Virus record (IMG/VR): IMGVR_UViG_3300025138_000334
Coordinates: 1 to 24,654 of that record
Length of the DNA stretch: 24,654 bases
Direction: 5' to 3' (one strand)
Source: a virus
The translations under genes were made by a program, and so were the position numbers. This document shows, in pieces, positions 2,981 to 24,654 of the stretch (within the stretch, counting starts at the first letter, position 1; every line of letters starts with the position of its first letter). The notes under the pieces are model-generated. The model did no database searches, was not told the origin of the DNA, and saw only the letters and a list, made by a program, of their open reading frames with translations.

Positions 2981-4405
2981 TTAGTTCATTAACATGAAGT
3001 TGTTAGCACCTTGAACTACTAAACATCTTTCTGATAAGAAGTTTACAGTCATTGCGTCTAAATCAGAAGTAGCAGCTCCAACCGAACCAGTGATCCAAGT
3101 TTTCATTTTTCTACTTTCTAATTGAGAAGCTCTGTATCTAACATGTAGGAAAGGTCTTTTTAGATTTTTTCCTAATTGCTCGTCATATACAGAAGATGTA
3201 CCAGCTGGGATAATAACCCCTCTAATATCTTCACCTGCAGTAGCGTTAGCGTTGATACCACCTCTTGTAGCTAGATCATTTAAATATCTAAAGTCAGACT
3301 TGTAGAAATCATAAGATCCACGTCTGAAACCAGAGAAACCTAAATTTAATGCCATGTCTTCAGAGTTGTTGAATACACCGTATGATGTACCACCAGCACC
3401 ATAAGAATTCATTGAAGCTAACATATCGTCCATTGCAAGAGACGTAGCTCTATTTACAAATAACATGTTTTCTTCAATTGCGCCATTTTTATCAAATTCA
3501 GCTAATATAGCATCAAATTCAGCTAAGTCAGTAGCAGCATTAACACCAGTAACTCCAGAAGTTTGGTGACCTCTTGACTTAATAGCGGAAAATAAACCTT
3601 CAGTACCAACTAAACCGTTAGCACCACCTAGTATAGTAGAACTATCAGCAGCTTTTTCAGATTCAATCATACTCATTTCTAAGTAGTCGTTAAATCTTGA
3701 TCTAGTTTCACCTTCAGCTTTTAAGTACCACATGTAACCACTTTGTCCGTCTTCACCAGAAACTTCAACCCATCCAACTTGAGAAGCATCAGATCCTGAA
3801 ACTTCATACATGTCTTTTAAGATAATTGGTTTGTTAGTAAACGAAGTAAAGTTAGGCTTGTTAGCTCTTCCTCCACCGTAGCTAGTTCCTTTTGAATGCT
3901 CAGAACCAAAAACTAAAACTCTAAGATCATTGTCAGCATCAGCAAATCCCATATCTGATAAATGAGCTCCACCGTAAGGTAAAGCTGTAATAACTTTAGA
4001 ACCAGCAGCAGCAACAGTTACTAAAGCAGTAACAGTTTGACCACCTCCAGAAATTAATACTTGGTCACCAACACGAATACCGTGATCAGTTGTTCTTGCA
4101 ACACCATCAATATCTTTTTCAATATTAATAGTACTAGCAGATGCATCTAAACAGTCTGCTTGGTAAGATAAATGTAATCTACCTTGTTCTGACCAAATAA
4201 CTTGATCAGCTGACATAGCTTCTTCAGCCCCAACTTGTGCTAAAAAACCAGAGATTGTACGTTTTCCGTAAACCTCAGCTTCTTTCTCCATTAAGTCTGG
4301 AAGATATTGCTGTGCCCATCCGTTGTTTTGGATGTCTAAATAATTGTCCGACAGAACCTGCTGCAGCGGTGCAGCTTGGAACGACGTTCTTGCAGTAATT
4401 GCCAT
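2981..4405 (-). CDS. Major capsid protein (HK97-fold type, inferred)
   Basis: A 474-residue protein placed directly after portal and scaffold-like genes, the usual site of the major capsid gene. It starts MAITARTSFQAAPLQQVLSD. There is a helix-rich N-terminal region (YLPDLMEKEAEVYGKRTISG), a beta-rich inserted stretch at roughly residues 95-150 (HGIRVGDQVLISGG...), and a long central part with SRFNDYLEMSMIESEKAADS. The C-terminal portion, with KRPFLHVRYRASQLESRKMK and FLSERCLVVQGANNFMLMN, resembles P-domain and A-domain sequence of HK97-like capsid proteins. Codons are regular and the product is neither strongly acidic nor repetitive. The gene has its own hairpin downstream, consistent with a highly expressed message. 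The HK97 fold is assumed from family knowledge of tailed phages. Confidence 0.85.
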   Translation of the reverse strand: MAITARTSFQAAPLQQVLSDNYLDIQNNGWAQQYLPDLMEKEAEVYGKRTISGFLAQVGAEEAMSADQVIWSEQGRLHLSYQADCLDASASTINIEKDIDGVARTTDHGIRVGDQVLISGGGQTVTALVTVAAAGSKVITALPYGGAHLSDMGFADADNDLRVLVFGSEHSKGTSYGGGRANKPNFTSFTNKPIILKDMYEVSGSDASQVGWVEVSGEDGQSGYMWYLKAEGETRSRFNDYLEMSMIESEKAADSSTILGGANGLVGTEGLFSAIKSRGHQTSGVTGVNAATDLAEFDAILAEFDKNGAIEENMLFVNRATSLAMDDMLASMNSYGAGGTSYGVFNNSEDMALNLGFSGFRRGSYDFYKSDFRYLNDLATRGGINANATAGEDIRGVIIPAGTSSVYDEQLGKNLKRPFLHVRYRASQLESRKMKTWITGSVGAATSDLDAMTVNFLSERCLVVQGANNFMLMN

Positions 4406-5634: not shown

Positions 5635-8055
5635 TTATCTAGGATCAAAGCTACCTAAATCAAAACCTCCTCCTAATATATCATTACCTGCAGACTCAAA
5701 GTTTTTAGGTGGTTTATTAGTTTTTCTTTGATCAATCATCTCACTTTGTTGTGAAGCTTGAATTTTTGTTCTTTCGTCTTTACGATCTTCTTTTTCTTTT
5801 TCTCTATTTGCAAGTCCTTGAGTTTCTACACCTTTTAACTGCATGCCATATTGAAACTCTAAAGCCATTAGCTCTTTTTTATACTCAACTTCTTGTGCTT
5901 GTTTCTGAGCATCTAATTGAGCTCTCATTTGCTCAAGCTGCATTTCTGTTTGTGCCATAGCTTGATTCTTCTGTAAATCAACTTGTGCAGCCGCTTGTGA
6001 AGACTGCTGGTTTGCTTGTGCTTGCGCTTGTATATTTTGTAACTGCTCAGCTCTGTCTGTCTCTTGCTTTTGTTTTCTTCTTATTTTTAATAATTGATTA
6101 GCAAGTTTGATATTTTTTATTTCTCTAAGATCAATAGCATCTTCAAGGTTTATACTCTGCTGTTGCAATGCCATTTGAATATTATTTTCAAGCATAGCTT
6201 TTTCTTCTTCATCAGGCTGTAACTCTATAAATATACCAAAGTCATATAAGTATAAATCACTTATTTCTTCTAGTGTAGCAACGTTATGAACACCTATAGC
6301 TTGTATAAATGCATCTTTTGTTGGTGAGTATTCTATAATATCAGATATTCTTAAAGATAAACACTCAGCTATTTCAGATGTTAAAAATAATCCAGACTGT
6401 AATATGTGTCTTGTTGCTGTATTACTATTTGCTGCAGCTAACTTTTGTACGCCAACTAAAGCATTTTTATCTGGCATACTACCATCTCTAGCTTCGTTAA
6501 GTCCGGTAGTATCTCTTATCATTTGTAAGTAGTAGTTGTATGTAGCTATTAAGCTTTGCATTTTAGCACCACCGTTGCTAGACTGTATTTCTTGAATAGG
6601 TACTTTACCAGGATTTAAATCACCTTCCGAAGTAAATGACCTACCTATAACAGAACCTGTTTGGAAGAACATGTTTAAAGCTTCTTGTGGGTTGTAGTTT
6701 GTACCATTACCTAAATCTATTTCAGCTAAACCATCAGCATCTAAATAAACACCATCTGGTACCATGCGTGATAACACTTGTTGTAACTTTAAATGTGTAA
6801 GCTGTATCATGTCAGCAAAACCTGTTATACGTTGTACTAAAGATTCAATACGACCTTTGTACATACGTGGAGCAACAATAGCATAGTTCATTTTAACCTT
6901 AGTGAAATCACTTTTAGGTCTCATCATGTTTTTAGCCATCTCCCACTTTAACAACTTGTCTGTACCTAAAATCATAGCGCCATCGTATAAGCACTCTACA
7001 GATCTTTGTAATTTGCCAAAGTTTTCTGCATCTTCAGGTGGATTAAAACTATCGTCTTTTTCTAATATCTTTTCAGCACCAGTACCAGTTTCTTTTACTT
7101 TGTAAACTTCGTTCATATATGTTTTATAATTAAAATATAAAACTTGAACTTTATTGTTATCTTCTTCTCTTAAATTATAACCAGTGTTGTTGTAGTTTGC
7201 CTTGTGATAGCTTTTGTTTTTAACTATATCTTCTAACTCGCTTTGATCTAAATGTGGAAACTGTTTTACAAGCTCATTAATTGGTATCATTTTAACTTCA
7301 CCAACATAATATATGTCATCAAAGTAAGGCGAGTCAGTGTAAGAATAAACTAAGTCAGCTGGATCAACATAATCAACCACAACACCTTCAGATGTATTAA
7401 AAGAAGTTTTTACAGCGCCTATACCTAAAACAGTAAGATCGTAGTAAAATTGTTTTTTAATTAACTCGTATTTATTACCTTCAAACAAAACATTAATAGC
7501 TTGCTCTTCTGCTATTTCAATTGCTTGCTTATAAGTTATCTGCATGTGAAGCTGTAACTCTTCTTCTGTTTGTGGTAGTTTAGGTATATCACTTTCTCTA
7601 GTATTAATACCAAATTGATCAGATGTAAAATTATCAAAGTCTTTAAGCTGCATGTCACTAATTATAGACTCCATGTAATCAGTTCTTTCTTTAACACCGT
7701 ATGGATCTTGTGAATAAGCTTTTACATCATATGTTCTTTCTGCAATACCGTTTACAACTATATCTACAAACTTAGGTATAATAGGTACTGGTTTCCAGTC
7801 TAAATTAAGATAAGATAAATCACCGTTAATAGATAATTCATCTTTGTATTTTTGTATTGATTGTTCACCTCTAGCGTATAGTCTTAAGTTATGAAAATTA
7901 TTATTATTAGTTCTATATCTATTTGAACCTCTATCAGTATGAAACCACTCAGTCTCAATAGCTTTAGCTACTTTCAAACCATAGTCATAGCTCATCTTTT
8001 CCAAATCACTTACGACTTGGCTTGGAAAATAATTATTTATAACAGACTCTGCCAT
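5635..8055 (-). CDS. Portal protein
   Basis: This 806-residue protein begins 2 bases after the large terminase stop, the standard place for the portal, which forms the dodecameric DNA gate and docks the terminase. The N-terminal 600 residues carry portal-like signs: an early helical region (FHNLRLYARGEQSIQKYKDE), NLDWKPVPIIPKFVDIVVNG, a beta-rich wing with VVVDYVDPADLVYSYTDSPY, and MIRDTTGLNEARDGSMPDKN. From about residue 655 to 765 there is a long Gln/Ala/Glu-rich coiled coil (QNIQAQAQANQQSSQAAAQV and onward), then a short Gly/Asp-rich tail. The product is larger than many portals (often 400-600 residues), mostly because of this C-terminal helix, which could form a barrel inside the head. 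Similar long portals are known from crAss-like and other phages of Bacteroidota. Confidence 0.88.
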   Translation of the reverse strand: MAESVINNYFPSQVVSDLEKMSYDYGLKVAKAIETEWFHTDRGSNRYRTNNNNFHNLRLYARGEQSIQKYKDELSINGDLSYLNLDWKPVPIIPKFVDIVVNGIAERTYDVKAYSQDPYGVKERTDYMESIISDMQLKDFDNFTSDQFGINTRESDIPKLPQTEEELQLHMQITYKQAIEIAEEQAINVLFEGNKYELIKKQFYYDLTVLGIGAVKTSFNTSEGVVVDYVDPADLVYSYTDSPYFDDIYYVGEVKMIPINELVKQFPHLDQSELEDIVKNKSYHKANYNNTGYNLREEDNNKVQVLYFNYKTYMNEVYKVKETGTGAEKILEKDDSFNPPEDAENFGKLQRSVECLYDGAMILGTDKLLKWEMAKNMMRPKSDFTKVKMNYAIVAPRMYKGRIESLVQRITGFADMIQLTHLKLQQVLSRMVPDGVYLDADGLAEIDLGNGTNYNPQEALNMFFQTGSVIGRSFTSEGDLNPGKVPIQEIQSSNGGAKMQSLIATYNYYLQMIRDTTGLNEARDGSMPDKNALVGVQKLAAANSNTATRHILQSGLFLTSEIAECLSLRISDIIEYSPTKDAFIQAIGVHNVATLEEISDLYLYDFGIFIELQPDEEEKAMLENNIQMALQQQSINLEDAIDLREIKNIKLANQLLKIRRKQKQETDRAEQLQNIQAQAQANQQSSQAAAQVDLQKNQAMAQTEMQLEQMRAQLDAQKQAQEVEYKKELMALEFQYGMQLKGVETQGLANREKEKEDRKDERTKIQASQQSEMIDQRKTNKPPKNFESAGNDILGGGFDLGSFDPR

Positions 8056-8057
8056 AT

Positions 8058-10271
8058 TTATTCTTTAATTAATTTAGATGTATTACCTGTGTTTTTATAC
8101 TTAGCAATACTTATGTTTAGTTTCGGTTTTTCTATTTTAGCGTTTGGCGCGTATAAATGCCTATTGTTAGCCATGATAGCTAAACCAGAGCTTATAGATG
8201 CATCATGCTTTGTTCTTTTGTTTATATCAAACTTAGCCCAGTCGTTTAGTAATTCATTAAAATAACAACTACCAAATTGACCTTCGTTGTTCATACCTAC
8301 GTGGTTTTGTATATACATTTCAATTGCAGCAGCATGAGCTTGTTTTATATCTTCACTAGAGTTTGGTATACCACCTATTTCTTTTTCTGCTACAGATAGT
8401 TTATTCCATATTTTATCTGGTCTGTTCATGCTAAAACCTCTATAACCACGCCTTCGTAAATAATACAATAGACGAGGTTTATTGTTCTCTGCAAGTAAAG
8501 GCATCCCGTAAAATACTAATGCCATTAGAACGTCTTCAAAGAATATCTCTGCAGTTTGTGGTCTAGCTAAATACTCTAAAAAAAACTGATTAGCTGGCGC
8601 ATCTTCCATACTGAACTTAGTTAAACCGTGCAAAGCACCTTTAGAACCTTTGCCATCTACTGTTCCTGATATATCATAGCTATCACAACCAAAAGCACCC
8701 ATGTGTTCGTTGCCTGGGTATCTAACACCGTTTTTTATTATAACTTTGTTTTGTATATTTGGTGGCGGTGTCCAGCTTACTTTAAACCTACCTTTAGGAT
8801 CTGGATAAAATATTACTGTTGAATCTTTAACGCCGTTAACCCACTGAAAGTTACCTATTGAAACACCTAGTGTTCTAGACATTTCTTCATTGTAATCTAT
8901 TTGCTCGTATAATTTAACTAAGTTAAATATACTGTTTTTAGTTTCATCTCTAAACGCATGTTCAGTAGTTCTTGGAAACTGTCTGTAAAATTCGTTTAGC
9001 GCATCTTGATCACCTTTTAAACCGTCAGCTTCATTTTGCCAACTGTCTACAACTCCTATATCTATTAATTCCCCATGTGGATCGAAGACTTCATGATCCG
9101 GAGTATCGAAGACTGGGCTTCCGTGCTCATCAATAAATCCTTCGTAGTTCCACTCCATTGGGATAAAAAGAGAATATAGCCCAGACGCTGTCTGTCCATT
9201 TCTGTTTCGCTTAGTAACGTCTGATGCATTATATAGTTTTTTAAAGTTTTCTCCACCCTTATCTAATGAATTTGATGTTGAGCCCATCATACATTTACCT
9301 ATAATTCTACTACCTAATCGTAAACATGTTTTTGTAACTCGCCAATTATTTAATATATTATCAGGTCTTTCCCACTTACCACTTTCATCATGTACTAGTA
9401 ACTTTAGTTTTTCACCGTCATAACTGTTATCACCTGTATTCTTCCAGTCTATAGTTGTATCTAATCCTTCTAGGTCTTCTAGCTTTTCGTTTGTTGTAAT
9501 TTTCTTTCTAGTGAACTTAGAAGCTGGAACTCTATATGCAAGCTCGGATTTTGGCCTATCCATACCGTCTTGAATAGGACTAAAAAAGAAAGGATAATTA
9601 ATCGATATAGGTACAACTTTGTCAGTAAACATTTTCTTAGCATCACTACCTGTTTTTGATAATATTCCAAACCTAGCATCACTTGATATTGTAGCTTGGT
9701 TGACTGTTTCAGCCGATGACATAAAAGAAAAACCAGACCGTCTATTTTTAAGGTAACACATACCATAACATCTTTTATCTGCTTTGCATGCTTCCCAAAA
9801 TATATAGAATAGTCTGTTAGCTTCTCTGAAGTCTGGCGCGCCTACATCTATTTTACTCCACTGCAGATACATATAGTGCGTACCAGTTATGTATGTTGCT
9901 TTGCCTTTGTTGTTAAACCAGAAACCTTGCTCTCTACGTTTAAACTCTTCGTCTATGTAATCAAACCAGTCAGCTTTTTTTTCTTCAGCGTAAGCTCTCC
10001 AGTCAAATATGTTTTTAAGTCTACCTAATTCTTTTGGATATTCAAACTGTTTCCACTTTTTTTCTTTGTTGCTATACACACTACGCTCTTTCGGTAATGC
10101 TATCTGAAAGTTTTGTATCTCGTATATCTCACCTATTTCACCAGTCTTAGATACAACTACAAGATCGTGTTCTTTGTTATAACCGTACTTCCACTTCTTA
10201 CCTTTGTTAAGTCTGCTTATAGTAGTTTTTTTTATAGGTTCTACTATTTGTAGTAAATTCTGTTCGTACAT
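8058..10271 (-). CDS. terL: Terminase large subunit (packaging ATPase and nuclease)
   Basis: This 737-residue protein cuts concatemeric DNA and pumps it into the head through the portal. A deviant Walker A (KNRRSGFSFMSS, about residue 174) and a Walker B (LKLLVHDESGKW, about residue 291, ending in Asp-Glu) mark the ATPase half. The sequence LNEFYRQFPRTTEHAFRDE is typical of the end of that half in large terminases. The nuclease half has an RNase H-type set of acidic residues: Asp in GAFGCDSYDISG (about 527), Glu in FFEDVLMAL (about 577) and Asp in KHDASISSG (about 690). The ATG shares one base with the stop of the preceding small gene (TAATG), so the two are translationally coupled. The portal gene follows 2 bases downstream. 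Confidence 0.93.
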   Translation of the reverse strand: MYEQNLLQIVEPIKKTTISRLNKGKKWKYGYNKEHDLVVVSKTGEIGEIYEIQNFQIALPKERSVYSNKEKKWKQFEYPKELGRLKNIFDWRAYAEEKKADWFDYIDEEFKRREQGFWFNNKGKATYITGTHYMYLQWSKIDVGAPDFREANRLFYIFWEACKADKRCYGMCYLKNRRSGFSFMSSAETVNQATISSDARFGILSKTGSDAKKMFTDKVVPISINYPFFFSPIQDGMDRPKSELAYRVPASKFTRKKITTNEKLEDLEGLDTTIDWKNTGDNSYDGEKLKLLVHDESGKWERPDNILNNWRVTKTCLRLGSRIIGKCMMGSTSNSLDKGGENFKKLYNASDVTKRNRNGQTASGLYSLFIPMEWNYEGFIDEHGSPVFDTPDHEVFDPHGELIDIGVVDSWQNEADGLKGDQDALNEFYRQFPRTTEHAFRDETKNSIFNLVKLYEQIDYNEEMSRTLGVSIGNFQWVNGVKDSTVIFYPDPKGRFKVSWTPPPNIQNKVIIKNGVRYPGNEHMGAFGCDSYDISGTVDGKGSKGALHGLTKFSMEDAPANQFFLEYLARPQTAEIFFEDVLMALVFYGMPLLAENNKPRLLYYLRRRGYRGFSMNRPDKIWNKLSVAEKEIGGIPNSSEDIKQAHAAAIEMYIQNHVGMNNEGQFGSCYFNELLNDWAKFDINKRTKHDASISSGLAIMANNRHLYAPNAKIEKPKLNISIAKYKNTGNTSKLIKE

Positions 10272-10543
10272 TACTTAGATCTACCCTCTGCAAAACCTTT
10301 AAATACTTTAACTTCGGTTTCAGTTTCTTTACCTTCAAGTATGTTCTCTTCCTCTTGTATTCTATTCAATATTTCAAACGCATCAAATATAGCTAGTTTC
10401 TTTGTCGCTGCAGCATTTTTTAATCTGTCAGCAGATATATCATCGTCAGAATCTACAATAGCTTCTTTAGCAACTTTAATCAGTTCTTCAACTGCTTTAT
10501 GCCCAGCTTGGATTATATTCTTCTTCGTCTCCTTGATATTCAT
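10271..10543 (-). CDS. Small helical protein, candidate terminase small subunit
   Basis: This 90-residue protein is predicted to be almost wholly helical (AGHKAVEELIKVAKEAIVDS, then DRLKNAAATKKLAIFDAFEI, then LNRIQEEENILEGKE). It lies directly upstream of the large terminase and overlaps its start by one base, the usual place of the small terminase that recognises DNA and tethers it to the large subunit. The N-terminus overlaps the previous gene by 47 bases. There is no other Met near the start, and the bases upstream of the ATG at 10543 are A/T-rich, so this start is a best guess. No explicit helix-turn-helix can be assigned by eye. A head scaffold helper is the main alternative. Confidence 0.6.
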   Translation of the reverse strand: MNIKETKKNIIQAGHKAVEELIKVAKEAIVDSDDDISADRLKNAAATKKLAIFDAFEILNRIQEEENILEGKETETEVKVFKGFAEGRSK

Positions 10544-11075
10544 ATTTGATTGTAATAAAATTTGATAGTAGTCTATATAGTTTCTGGCCGTCTATTATAA
10601 ACTCATATTCTGAGCTTGGCCTAAAACCTATTAAATCGCCTTTGTTAACTGTACCGTCAGTATGTTTTACAATACCAACTAAAGGCTTTTCTTTATCTAC
10701 ACTGTATTTGTCTGTAGATTTTACTGGTGCCACAAAACAATATCCTTTTTGCGCTTGCCATTCGGTATTTTTGTATAAGAATATTTGATCTGGTTGTACT
10801 AGGTAAGTTTCTTCATCAATATAACCTCTACTATTCTTTTCTATACCGTGCTGGTTGTGCCATCTTCTAAATACATTATGGTGCACTATAACCTTATCAC
10901 CAACTTTTATATCTGTATCACCAACTGTAGGTATTGCTTTTACTATAGCTTCTCTACTAACATACTGGTGGTTGAATATATCTGTATTAACTATCAGTTC
11001 TCTACCTCCTATATCTTTTGTATTGTTGTATCTTGATTTTACTGGCGTTACAACAAAGTTGTAAACCGACTTCAT
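10497..11075 (-). CDS. Tandem GroES-fold-like protein
   Basis: This 192-residue protein appears to contain two co-chaperonin-type barrels in a row. Half 1 (residues about 5-102) has FVVTPVKSRYNNTKDIGGRE followed by LIV, like the GroES start plus mobile loop. It then has REAIVKAIP, IKVGDKVIVHHNVFR and EETYLVQPDQIFLYK, matching in order the GroES elements that read GEVLAVG, VKVGDIVIFND and EEVLIMSESDILAI. Half 2 (about 111-178) repeats the plan: YCFVAPVKST, LVGIVKHTDG, VNKGDLIGFRP and GQKLYRLLSNFITIKYE. Half 2 lacks an obvious mobile loop. Tandem barrels of this kind are known in plastid Cpn20. The ATG overlaps the upstream stop by one base. Alternatives are a structural protein with unrelated beta-barrels; the similarity is by eye and not tested. 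Confidence 0.6.
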   Translation of the reverse strand: MKSVYNFVVTPVKSRYNNTKDIGGRELIVNTDIFNHQYVSREAIVKAIPTVGDTDIKVGDKVIVHHNVFRRWHNQHGIEKNSRGYIDEETYLVQPDQIFLYKNTEWQAQKGYCFVAPVKSTDKYSVDKEKPLVGIVKHTDGTVNKGDLIGFRPSSEYEFIIDGQKLYRLLSNFITIKYEYQGDEEEYNPSWA

Positions 11076-19522: not shown

Positions 19523-19759
19523 TTACTTTTTCTTCTTCATTTTCATTTTCATCGCAGAAACTTTCTTCATCATCATAGCTGACTTTTTCATCATAGCCAT
19601 AGATTCTTTTTTCATTTTAACGGCAACTCCTTCTTTCTTTTTAATCTCAGCAACTAAAGCTGGGTTTAAATTTTTTTCTTGTTTAGCTGTAATTTTCATT
19701 GGAGCTTTCTTCATCTTTGCCATTGATTTTTTCTTCATTTTTGCTGGTGCTTTTTTCAT
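19523..19759 (-). CDS. Lys/Met-rich repetitive basic protein
   Basis: This 78-residue product is about 36 percent Lys and 19 percent Met, made of short KKAP, KMKKK and MMKK units (MKKAPAKMKKKSMAKMKKAP at the start and a run of MKMKMKKKK at the end). The middle (ITAKQEKNLNPALVAEIKKK) is the only non-repetitive part. The composition resembles histone H1-like or protamine-like tails and suggests binding to nucleic acid, perhaps with the head DNA; this is inferred from charge alone. The Met-richness is unusual. Its ATG overlaps the PAP2 gene stop as ATGA, and the next gene starts immediately, so it is embedded in the operon and is unlikely to be a chance frame. Confidence 0.62.
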   Translation of the reverse strand: MKKAPAKMKKKSMAKMKKAPMKITAKQEKNLNPALVAEIKKKEGVAVKMKKESMAMMKKSAMMMKKVSAMKMKMKKKK

Positions 19760-20289
19760 TTTGTTTTATTTTTTATATGTTTATACATTGAGTTACCTAA
19801 TTTATCACCCATCTTACTATCAGACTTATAGTGAGCGCGGGCAACTCTACGACTATAAGATATATTTTCACCTGTCTTTACAAATGCAGATTTTGCTTTT
19901 GGATATTTATCACCTAGTACTTTTGCTATTAACGTTCCTTGAACAGAATGTCCAGAAGGATATGATTTAGTCTTCATAGAAGACATTTCGTAGTTAGGTA
20001 AACTTTTGTCTAACTGTTTAGGTCTAGGCCTGTTGAAGTGCTTCTTTAATTCTAAGATTACAGGTGCAGAGTCTTTTATTAACTTTGCAGCAACTTTTTT
20101 ATCATAATCTTCTATATTATTATCTTTAGCAGTCTTAGCAAATGCAGACTCTATGTTATCAAACTTCTTTACAAAAGATTTATTTAAAGGTATTTTCTTA
20201 AGTTCTTTTAACTCCTGCGCAGTATCAAAGCTACTATCACTAGGTGGCTTCATTTTTTTAAATGAACTTATATCAAAATCTTTTAACAC
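19756..20289 (-). CDS. PAP2 superfamily acid phosphatase
   Basis: This 177-residue protein carries all three motifs of class A nonspecific acid phosphatases and the wider PAP2 family: KKHFNRPRP (K, six residues, RP), YPSGHS, and SRRVARAHYKSD (SR, five residues, H, three residues, D). Spacings of 20 and 31 residues lie within the usual range. These histidines act as nucleophile and acid in phosphate monoester or lipid-phosphate hydrolysis. There is no signal peptide and no membrane helix, so unlike bacterial class A enzymes it is likely cytoplasmic or virion-borne. The N-terminal 75 residues are Lys-rich helices. It overlaps the preceding gene by 7 bases. Possible roles: phosphate release from nucleotides or lipid precursors of the host. 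Confidence 0.85.
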   Translation of the reverse strand: MLKDFDISSFKKMKPPSDSSFDTAQELKELKKIPLNKSFVKKFDNIESAFAKTAKDNNIEDYDKKVAAKLIKDSAPVILELKKHFNRPRPKQLDKSLPNYEMSSMKTKSYPSGHSVQGTLIAKVLGDKYPKAKSAFVKTGENISYSRRVARAHYKSDSKMGDKLGNSMYKHIKNKTK

Positions 20290-20511: not shown

Positions 20512-20889
20512 TTAACATTTCCACCTGCGTCTAGCTGCTTTACCACGTTCTCCAGTCCAACCTTTTGATCTTGCACAAAATGATTTTCTACGCTTAGCAG
20601 CTTTACTACCAGGTTTAACTTTACCAGTAACTGCAGTCTTTAATTTACTGCCTGGGTTTTTTCTTTTGTATTCAGTAACACCCTTGCTTGTCATACCAGC
20701 TCCTTCTTTTACAGTTCTAAAATTACGACCCTTACCTTTAGTTGTTTTTCTAGGTTCGTTACTTTTTTTATTTAAAGGTGATCCGTCGTTTCTTCTACGC
20801 CCACAGCTAGTAACAGGAAAAGGGTTTCCGAGTTGTTCGAAATCCCTATTATTTTTAAACATATTATTTTGCAGTGGTGATCCTGGCAT
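20512..20889 (-). CDS. Basic SFCAR-motif protein (DUF6321-like)
   Basis: This 125-residue protein is strongly basic. The C-terminal half (GMTSKGVTEYKRKNPGSKLK, then TAVTGKVKPGSKAAKRRKSF, then CARSKGWTG and RRRWKC) closely follows a phage domain that I recall as DUF6321, typified by KGSKAAKRRKSFCAR. The role of that domain is unknown. The N-terminal part (MPGSPLQNNMFKNNRDFEQL) appears disordered. The conserved Cys residues may bind metal or link to partner proteins. Its start overlaps the wHTH gene stop by one base. Confidence 0.68.
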   Translation of the reverse strand: MPGSPLQNNMFKNNRDFEQLGNPFPVTSCGRRRNDGSPLNKKSNEPRKTTKGKGRNFRTVKEGAGMTSKGVTEYKRKNPGSKLKTAVTGKVKPGSKAAKRRKSFCARSKGWTGERGKAARRRWKC

Positions 20890-22944: not shown

Positions 22945-23202
22945 TTAATCTATTAGCACCACATCACCAGATCTGATAACGTGATATAATATTTCTTTAT
23001 ACTGAACACCGTGTCCAGCATGTTTGTCATAATAAACGATGTCTTTGTCGTTTATACCTTCTACAAGGTTACCAACAGATATTACGTTAGCTTTTATATA
23101 CCTATTGTCCTCGTCTAATTGTTCCGTCATAATTAGACCCGCAACTGTCTTTGGCCCTTGTTTTAATTTTTGTACTATTATATAGTTATTTACTGCTTGC
23201 AT
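22945..23202 (-). CDS. groES: GroES co-chaperonin (phage-encoded)
   Basis: This 85-residue protein caps the GroEL ring so that a bound protein can fold inside. It shows the GroES order: start strand NNYIIVQKLK, mobile loop QGPKTVAGLIMTE with the hydrophobic triplet LIM in place of IVL, IKANVISVGNLV, the KDIVYYDKHAG strand and ILYHVIRSGDVVLID at the end. It is about 10 residues shorter than the E. coli protein, mainly because the middle roof segment is short. The ATG at 23202 lies inside the end of groEL, a 17-base overlap, so both are made from one message. The groEL-groES order is reversed relative to most bacteria. Confidence 0.9.
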   Translation of the reverse strand: MQAVNNYIIVQKLKQGPKTVAGLIMTEQLDEDNRYIKANVISVGNLVEGINDKDIVYYDKHAGHGVQYKEILYHVIRSGDVVLID

Positions 23203-24654
23203 CGCCTCTCATGTTTGAAATTATACAATCAGCGGATATAATAGTAGTTACAACACTTACCGCATTTTTAAGTGCTGACTTGGTAACAAGTACTGGATCT
23301 ATAATACCATGCTTAATCATTTCACATGTATTTCCATTTGTTACATCTATTCCTTTACCATCAGTAGGTTCTACAGCCTCAATTATACCAGCATTATCTA
23401 ATATAGTCTGATAAGGTGATTTAATAGCGTTAAGTAGTATTTCTTCACCCCAACCATTAGCTTTTATTTCTTGAGCTGCGTTTAAAAGTGCGATACCACC
23501 ACCTGGCACTATACCTTCTTTCAAAGCTGCTTTAGTAGCATATATCGCATCTTCCACTCTATCTTTCTTTTCTTTCAGTTCTACCTTAGAAGCTGCACCT
23601 ACTTTGACCATACCTACTTTACCTGAAAGCATAGCCAACCTATCTTGTATTTTTTTCTTTATATACTCGTTTTTTTCTTTTTTTATAGCTTTTCTAACGT
23701 TTTCTATACGATCAGATAAGTCTTCACCAAGGTCTATAGTAGTTATTACAGTATTTTTGGCATTTGTAACAGCTTTTTTGGCTCTTCCAAGACAATCAAC
23801 AGTAATTAAGTCCATATCATCACCTAATTCTTCATTTATTACCGTAGCACCGGTTAAAAACGCTAAATCTTGCACTGTATCTTGCTTAGTAGGACCAAAG
23901 CCTGGTAAATCAACAATATTTATCTTGATATTACCCTTTACTTTGTTCATCATAAGGGCTGATTTTAGCTGCTGGTCAACTTGCGCTACTATTAACAACT
24001 CTTTTTTGTGCTTTATAACATGTTCTAGTATCGGTTGTATCTTACGTATGTTAGGTATTTGACTACCTACAATCAAAACTAGTGGTTCTTCAAGTATAGC
24101 CTCATGTTTTTCAGTATCTGTGACAAAATGTGGTGATGTTATACCACAATCAAACTGCACACCATCAACTATGTCAACATAAGTGTCTTCAGTTTCTGAC
24201 CCTTCCATAAAAACAACACCATCTTTACCTACTTTAGTATAAGCTTCTGAGATAATAGCACCTAGTTCAGCATCGTTATTACAGCTTATAGTGCTAATGT
24301 CTTTTAACATGTTACCTTCAACATCTATTGCTGTATCTGTTAAATACTTGTTTACTTTTCCAAGTGCTGAGTTTATGCCTTGCTTAATAAATCTAGTAGA
24401 AAGCTCTGCATACTGTTCTTTTTGTACTTCTTTAATCAGTGCTTCAGCAAGGACGGTAGCTGTAGTAGTACCGTCACCTGCTTCTTTCACTGTGTTTTTA
24501 GCGGCTTCTTTAATAAGAGTAGCCCCAAGGTTTTCAACCGGGTCATATAAGACAACAGATTCTGCTACTGTTACACCGTCTTTTGTAATGACCGGGTTGC
24601 CTCTAGCATCTTCGTATATTACACACTTTCCAGATGCTCCTAGAGTAGACTTCA
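23186..24654 (-). CDS. groEL: GroEL chaperonin (phage-encoded), 5' end outside window
   Basis: The frame is open to the window edge. From the edge it reads KSTLGASGKCVIYEDARGNP, VITKDGVTVAES and ENLGATLIKEAAKNT, then continues to AGDGTTTATVLAEALI, so about 25-30 N-terminal residues are missing; a GTG at 24490 is not the start. The equatorial ATP site is intact: Asp in TKDGVT, GDGTTT, Asp in RVEDAIYATK and VPGGGIAL. The apical domain spans roughly VVFMEGSETEDTYVDIVDGV to LPGFGPTKQDTVQD. GroEL forms a double ring that folds client proteins with GroES. The C-terminus ends in NMRGDASSK and lacks the GGM tail of the bacterial protein. A few surface residues used for client and GroES contacts differ from E. 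coli. Confidence 0.95.
   Translation of the reverse strand, partial: KSTLGASGKCVIYEDARGNPVITKDGVTVAESVVLYDPVENLGATLIKEAAKNTVKEAGDGTTTATVLAEALIKEVQKEQYAELSTRFIKQGINSALGKVNKYLTDTAIDVEGNMLKDISTISCNNDAELGAIISEAYTKVGKDGVVFMEGSETEDTYVDIVDGVQFDCGITSPHFVTDTEKHEAILEEPLVLIVGSQIPNIRKIQPILEHVIKHKKELLIVAQVDQQLKSALMMNKVKGNIKINIVDLPGFGPTKQDTVQDLAFLTGATVINEELGDDMDLITVDCLGRAKKAVTNAKNTVITTIDLGEDLSDRIENVRKAIKKEKNEYIKKKIQDRLAMLSGKVGMVKVGAASKVELKEKKDRVEDAIYATKAALKEGIVPGGGIALLNAAQEIKANGWGEEILLNAIKSPYQTILDNAGIIEAVEPTDGKGIDVTNGNTCEMIKHGIIDPVLVTKSALKNAVSVVTTIISADCIISNMRGDASSK

Follow-up and report, generated by a model that had tools for sequence, protein, structure and literature searches.

The window analysed here, which is the whole IMG/VR record IMGVR_UViG_3300025138_000334 (24,654 bases), carries a phage-encoded groEL-groES pair that is real, old and conserved (Table 1). 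We consider it quite probable that the pair is a functional, phage-owned chaperonin of the group I type that is dedicated to late proteins, with chamber and lid made together, with probably single or weakly coupled rings, and with a lid specific to its own GroEL. Phage pairs of this kind and their reversed gene order were already known; the newer points are the altered contacts of ring and lid and the presence of a double-length GroES-like gene.

Table 1. Chaperonin genes and neighbouring landmarks in the window.
Feature	Position	Strand	Basis
groEL (group I chaperonin large subunit)	23186..24654	(-)	ORF and HMM matches; truncated 5' at the contig end; covers residues 35-522 as numbered in full-length relatives
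groES (Cpn10 co-chaperonin), 85 aa	22945..23202	(-)	Pfam Cpn10 1.6e-7; AlphaFold model; roof alignment
17-nt overlap, groES ATG within the groEL 3' end	23186..23202	(-)	sequence; 14 or 17 nt in 76/79 relatives
Second GroES-like gene, 192 aa, near terminase	10497..11075	(-)	phrog_13932 'co-chaperonin GroES' 7.6e-20
Terminase large subunit	8058..10271	(-)	phrog_6681 1.5e-163
Portal protein	5635..8055	(-)	phrog_6547 2.2e-156
Virion structural protein, possible major capsid protein	2981..4405	(-)	phrog_13704 2.2e-101

The groEL-groES pair and its place in the genome

The window groEL is readable over 488 aa and remains open at the contig end. It matches Pfam Cpn60_TCP1 (3.6e-53) and the PHROG family chaperonin groEL (3.4e-124), while the groES product matches the PHROG family co-chaperonin GroES (1.6e-10) in addition to Pfam Cpn10. 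An earlier note, made from the DNA letters alone, had described a phage groEL followed by a groES that starts 17 bases inside it, and had proposed a search for the missing groEL N-terminus. The description is confirmed by the reading frames, the HMM matches and the relatives; the search is answered by full-length relatives (517–524 aa), which supply the 34 residues absent from the window.

A scan of viral contigs yielded 164 places that encode a relative, and the best 80 of these 164 were analysed; the counts out of 80 given below refer to this set. groEL is followed by groES on the same strand in 79 of the 80, and the remaining contig ends inside groEL. Counted from the conserved start methionine of groES, the two genes overlap by 14 nt in 40 of the 79 loci, by 17 nt in 36, by 4 nt in one and by 1 nt in one. 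The exception is locus L058, where an inserted ORF separates groEL and groES. Identity inside the viral clade falls to 67%. The median dN/dS is ~0.15 for groEL and ~0.11 for groES; both proteins have therefore been maintained by purifying selection. The 17-nt overlap in the window probably couples the translation of groES to that of groEL.

The insert in L058 (L058:3220-3660) is a 146-aa ORF that overlaps the end of groEL by 20 nt and looks, by eye only, like an iron/2-oxoglutarate oxygenase.

The wider setting is visible in a relative of 69.7 kb (G001), whose genome has two arms that are read in opposite directions. One arm carries recombination, ligase, ribonucleotide reductase, thymidylate synthase and sigma-like genes, and the other, late arm carries the terminase, portal and virion genes. 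Shortly past the strand switch, the groEL-groES pair takes an early place in the late arm, upstream of the terminase, portal and virion genes. The earlier note had placed the pair at the head of the late operon. Its location at the late-arm start holds, but in relatives the pair does not quite come first, being separated from the strand switch by an ORF of ~96 aa (66/69 loci) and a few further small ORFs. This ~96-aa ORF (L003:1154-1444 (+) and equivalents) stops ~27 nt before groEL in the 66 of 69 loci, and its copy in G001 (L100:12780-13073) gave no Pfam or PHROG match.

The relatives of the terminase belong to phages of Flavobacterium, Cellulophaga, Tenacibaculum and Maribacter, and the hosts of this marine phage family are therefore probably Flavobacteriia.

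Chamber, lid and a second GroES-like protein

The AlphaFold model of a full-length GroEL orthologue (L003) matches GroEL structures with TM-scores up to 0.88, and the phage protein has both the Cpn60 sequence family (by its Pfam match) and the three-domain fold (by the model match). The ATPase residues D52, D87 and D398 are kept in all 80 relatives. Six of the eight positions of the groove in which clients and the mobile loop of GroES bind are replaced in nearly all of them. Y199 has become L or I, L234 has become Q and L259 has become K, Q or R in 80/80, Y203 is H or N in 79/80, and V263 and V264 are mostly M. The other two positions are retained, L237 in all 80 and F204 in 78.

The contacts between rings are altered as well. 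The loop 423–440, with E434 and D435, has 10–13 residues versus 16–19 in bacterial GroEL, and the loop 455–479, with E461, S463 and V464, has 19–21 versus 23–27, in each case in 80/80. Inter-ring positions 434 and 435 are deleted throughout the 80, R452 is kept in two, a K105-D435 bridge is possible in none, and the combination of R/K452 with E/D461 occurs in five. The GGM tail is absent from all 80 phage GroELs. In mitochondrial Hsp60, the single ring is associated with a loss of the K105-D435 and E461-R452 salt bridges, and a GroEL engineered to form a single ring was functional only with weakened GroES binding (PMC5575113). The changes in the groove and between the rings are therefore consistent with a machine whose rings are single or weakly coupled. 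They do no more than suggest this, because 51 of the 80 retain K105 and the alignment of the loops is uncertain.

The model of the window GroES (pLDDT 87) matches Cpn10 structures and T4 gp31, with Foldseek E-values of 7.6e-6 to Hsp10 and 5e-4 to gp31. Its mobile loop retains the hydrophobic tripeptide (GLIMT in the window, GLIMT or GLILT in the alignment) and is modelled with a low pLDDT, in keeping with a flexible stretch of the protein. The roof hairpin of this protein is reduced, its loop having at least 4 residues fewer than that of the GroES of Flavobacteriia. A reduced roof loop, the Cpn10 fold and a phage origin are shared with T4 gp31, which has no roof loops and folds the large capsid protein gp23 (PMC6318259). 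By analogy, the short roof of the window GroES could admit larger clients. T4 differs from the window phage in having no GroEL of its own, so that gp31 uses the host ring.

Near the terminase, the window encodes a further GroES-like protein of 192 aa, which probably consists of two Cpn10 domains in tandem, the second better supported and the first insecure. Compared with bacterial Cpn10 by hhalign, domain 2 gave a P of 3e-7 and domain 1 a P of 4e-4 over 24 columns only; ten control families gave P values of 0.07 or worse. The profile of the phage's own groES gave no match (P of 0.026 or worse), and the assignment is supported by the bacterial Cpn10 profile and by PHROG. A homologue of the 192-aa protein is encoded at 66 of the 79 loci, and most of the others end too soon to tell. 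Homologues beside the terminase are annotated as co-chaperonin GroES in Elemovirus, phi38:1 and Panino, and the homologue in phage ctfjg026 is annotated as hypothetical. A comparable plan is known from chloroplast Cpn20, in which two Cpn10-like domains are joined head to tail and which occurs beside a single-domain Cpn10 (PMC5780408). This is a likeness of plan only, without a close sequence link shown.

Proposed working of the pair

Late transcription, close to where the late arm begins, would produce one message that carries groEL and groES. Since the groES start codon lies inside groEL, groES would be translated by coupling to groEL, and chamber and lid would thus be made together, before or alongside the virion proteins that are to be folded. 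The GroEL subunits would assemble into a seven-membered ATPase ring, for which the phage GroES would serve as lid. This ring would bind unfolded virion proteins, and ATP would let the phage's own lid close the chamber, where the short roof might leave room for larger clients, as with gp31. The scheme is likened to that of T4, in which gp31 together with the host GroEL folds gp23. A likely client is the possible major capsid protein listed in Table 1, and the lid is probably specific to the phage's own GroEL. Support of a direct kind is given by a related system in another phage family: the GroEL protein of phi38:1 has been found both in infected cells and in samples of free virions (PMC13288928).

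A more far-reaching version, which we put forward tentatively and with the odds against it, is a naturally single-ring, lid-dependent viral chaperonin. The inter-ring sites would have been lost and the affinity for the lid retuned, such that the roof-poor GroES cycles without a second ring. The tandem-Cpn10 protein near the terminase would then be a second lid, which might serve another client or mix into the lid ring like plant Cpn10 and Cpn20.

An alternative explanation might be that the two proteins are neighbours rather than partners, with GroES acting as a gp31-like lid for the host GroEL and the phage GroEL acting as a lid-free holdase like those of EL and AR9. Phage chaperonins that are independent of a co-chaperonin are known (PMC7185714, PMC9598537). 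Those of the jumbo phages EL, OBP and AR9 function without one (PMC9598537), and a phage GroEL therefore need not use a lid. Several phages have a GroEL with no GroES found nearby. Moreover, the residues of the GroES-binding groove are altered in the phage GroEL, which could mean that the lid is bound weakly or not at all, and not that it is bound specifically. Against this explanation, groEL and groES stand together in 79 of 79 loci, overlapping in 78 of them, and the hydrophobic tripeptide of the mobile loop has been kept. L237 and F204 have been kept too, with methionines at 263 and 264, and a hydrophobic lid contact is therefore still possible. We regard the explanation as rather unlikely. 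The jumbo phages resemble the window phage in encoding GroEL relatives, and the chaperonins of OBP and AR9 form single rings (PMC9598537). However, these proteins are very distant from that of the window (~25% identity for AR9), besides working without a co-chaperonin. In vitro, the protein on which the EL and AR9 chaperonins act is an endolysin and not a capsid protein.

If the two proteins are partners, as we prefer, the clade offers a complete and compact chamber with its lid from medium-sized phages, with the inter-ring contacts naturally lost. The phage chaperonins studied in vitro so far are either lid-free (EL, OBP, AR9) or lid-only (gp31). It thus becomes testable whether a group I chaperonin can function with one ring and a lid of its own, an issue otherwise addressed via engineered GroEL mutants and mitochondrial Hsp60. 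It also becomes testable whether phages bring their own chaperonin and so free virion folding from that of the host.

Gene order and origin

In the bacterial loci nearest to the phage GroEL, groES lies upstream of groEL in all 77 that have a detectable groES. This is in line with a published survey of complete genomes, in which 4,824 of 5,658 groEL genes were found closely downstream of a groES (PMC5406781), and it agrees with the order that the earlier note had given for bacteria. The bacterial order is absent from the viral clade, where it is reversed in all informative loci (79/79).

Outside this clade, the reversed order is also found in phage ctfjg026 and in Elemovirus, and the bacterial order in phi38:1, Calle_1, Immutovirus, cthkR962, DAC16 (whose GroES was recognised by HMM) and MT835992. 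The expectation of the earlier note that few phages encode both proteins was not borne out: both genes occur in Elemovirus (68 records), ctfjg026, Pervagoviridae, Immutovirus, DAC-type Bacteroides phages and others. Deposited genomes already contain the reversed order, as annotated pairs in Elemovirus isolates and in the podovirus ctfjg026, and the window pair is not a first. The reversed order may go back to rearrangement or to separate acquisition of the two genes. In work on virioplankton chaperonins by Marine et al. in 2017, the order of the large and small subunit genes reportedly follows the GroEL phylogeny, in which case the order difference would be already published. A tblastn search with the window groES against annotated phages gave no match at E 1e-3, the protein being too divergent, and the groES linkage in these phages was established via GroEL and HMMs. 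The ORFs directly downstream of groEL in phi14:2 and cr108_1 were not recognised as Cpn10.

Three of these phages invite closer comparison. ctfjg026 (MW202828.1, Manatee Spring) shares with the window the groEL-groES order, the position of the pair where the late arm begins, directly behind the strand switch, a tandem GroES-like gene near the terminase, and the terminase nearest to that of the window (63% identity). It differs in its GroEL (~36% identical) and GroES (32%), and its GroEL is longer (542 aa) and lacks the loss in loop 423–440. The Flavobacterium phage Elemovirus (NC_055853.1 and relatives) likewise has the reversed order with annotated GroEL and GroES, overlapping by 1 nt, and a tandem GroES-like gene beside the terminase. 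In contrast to the window, its pair is transcribed against the structural-gene neighbours, and its GroEL identity is ~36–37%. The Cellulophaga phage phi38:1 (Pervagoviridae) is a flavobacterial podovirus that has, like the window phage, both subunits and a tandem GroES-like gene, which lies before the terminase, yet its chaperonin genes have the bacterial order (Cpn10, small ORF, GroEL) and lie in the replication module.

The closest bacterial GroELs that were found are 43% identical and mostly from Flavobacteriia. In a tree of 85 GroELs, the viral proteins form one clade (SH-aLRT 100), whose stem measures 1.75 substitutions per site. An AU test did not reject a grouping of phage and Flavobacteriia GroELs (p 0.527), and an ancient Bacteroidota source of the phage GroEL is therefore possible. 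The data also allow a single origin for the reversed-order phages, a grouping that the AU test did not reject (p 0.963) and whose likelihood was above that of the free tree. Any placing of the deeper root of the clade is weakened by the long branches of the phage GroELs, which attract each other.

Recent capture of a host groE operon, followed by a flip of its gene order, would be in agreement with nearest bacterial GroELs that come mostly from the probable host class and with the grouping kept by the AU test. Nevertheless, we consider it very improbable. The identity of only 43% to any bacterial GroEL found excludes a recent event, and the stem of the single viral clade, the residue and loop differences fixed in 80/80 (the best 80 of 164 relatives) and the identity within the clade down to 67% argue in the same direction. 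Recent capture was hence rejected on identity and the tree, which supports the doubt about it already voiced in the earlier note; a nesting of both genes in one bacterial genus, which would have spoken for such a transfer, did not appear in the GroEL tree.

An assembly or binning artefact, with a bacterial piece fused to a phage contig, might be suspected from the position of groEL at the contig end, but it was rejected as next to impossible on account of the 79 separate contigs in which the arrangement recurs, and is countered further by the same terminase on the same contig in all 13 longer relatives checked and by the phage DNA that extends up to 10 kb upstream of the pair in relatives, where bacterial chromosomal genes, the finding that the earlier note had named as contrary evidence, did not appear.

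Some further genes in the surroundings of the pair deserve mention. A sigma-70-like protein is encoded on the opposite arm of G001 (L100:1488-2267 (-)) and could drive late transcription, including that of the chaperonin pair. The late arm of G001 also encodes two very large proteins of 2755 and 2961 aa (L101:10698-18965 and L102:2739-11624). A PAP2-family gene lies downstream of the pair in the window (19756-20289 (-)), but in G001 an ORF resembling it is found upstream of the pair (L100:11936-12478 (+)). The window further encodes a small basic protein with DUF6321 (1.8e-10) at 20512-20889 (-).
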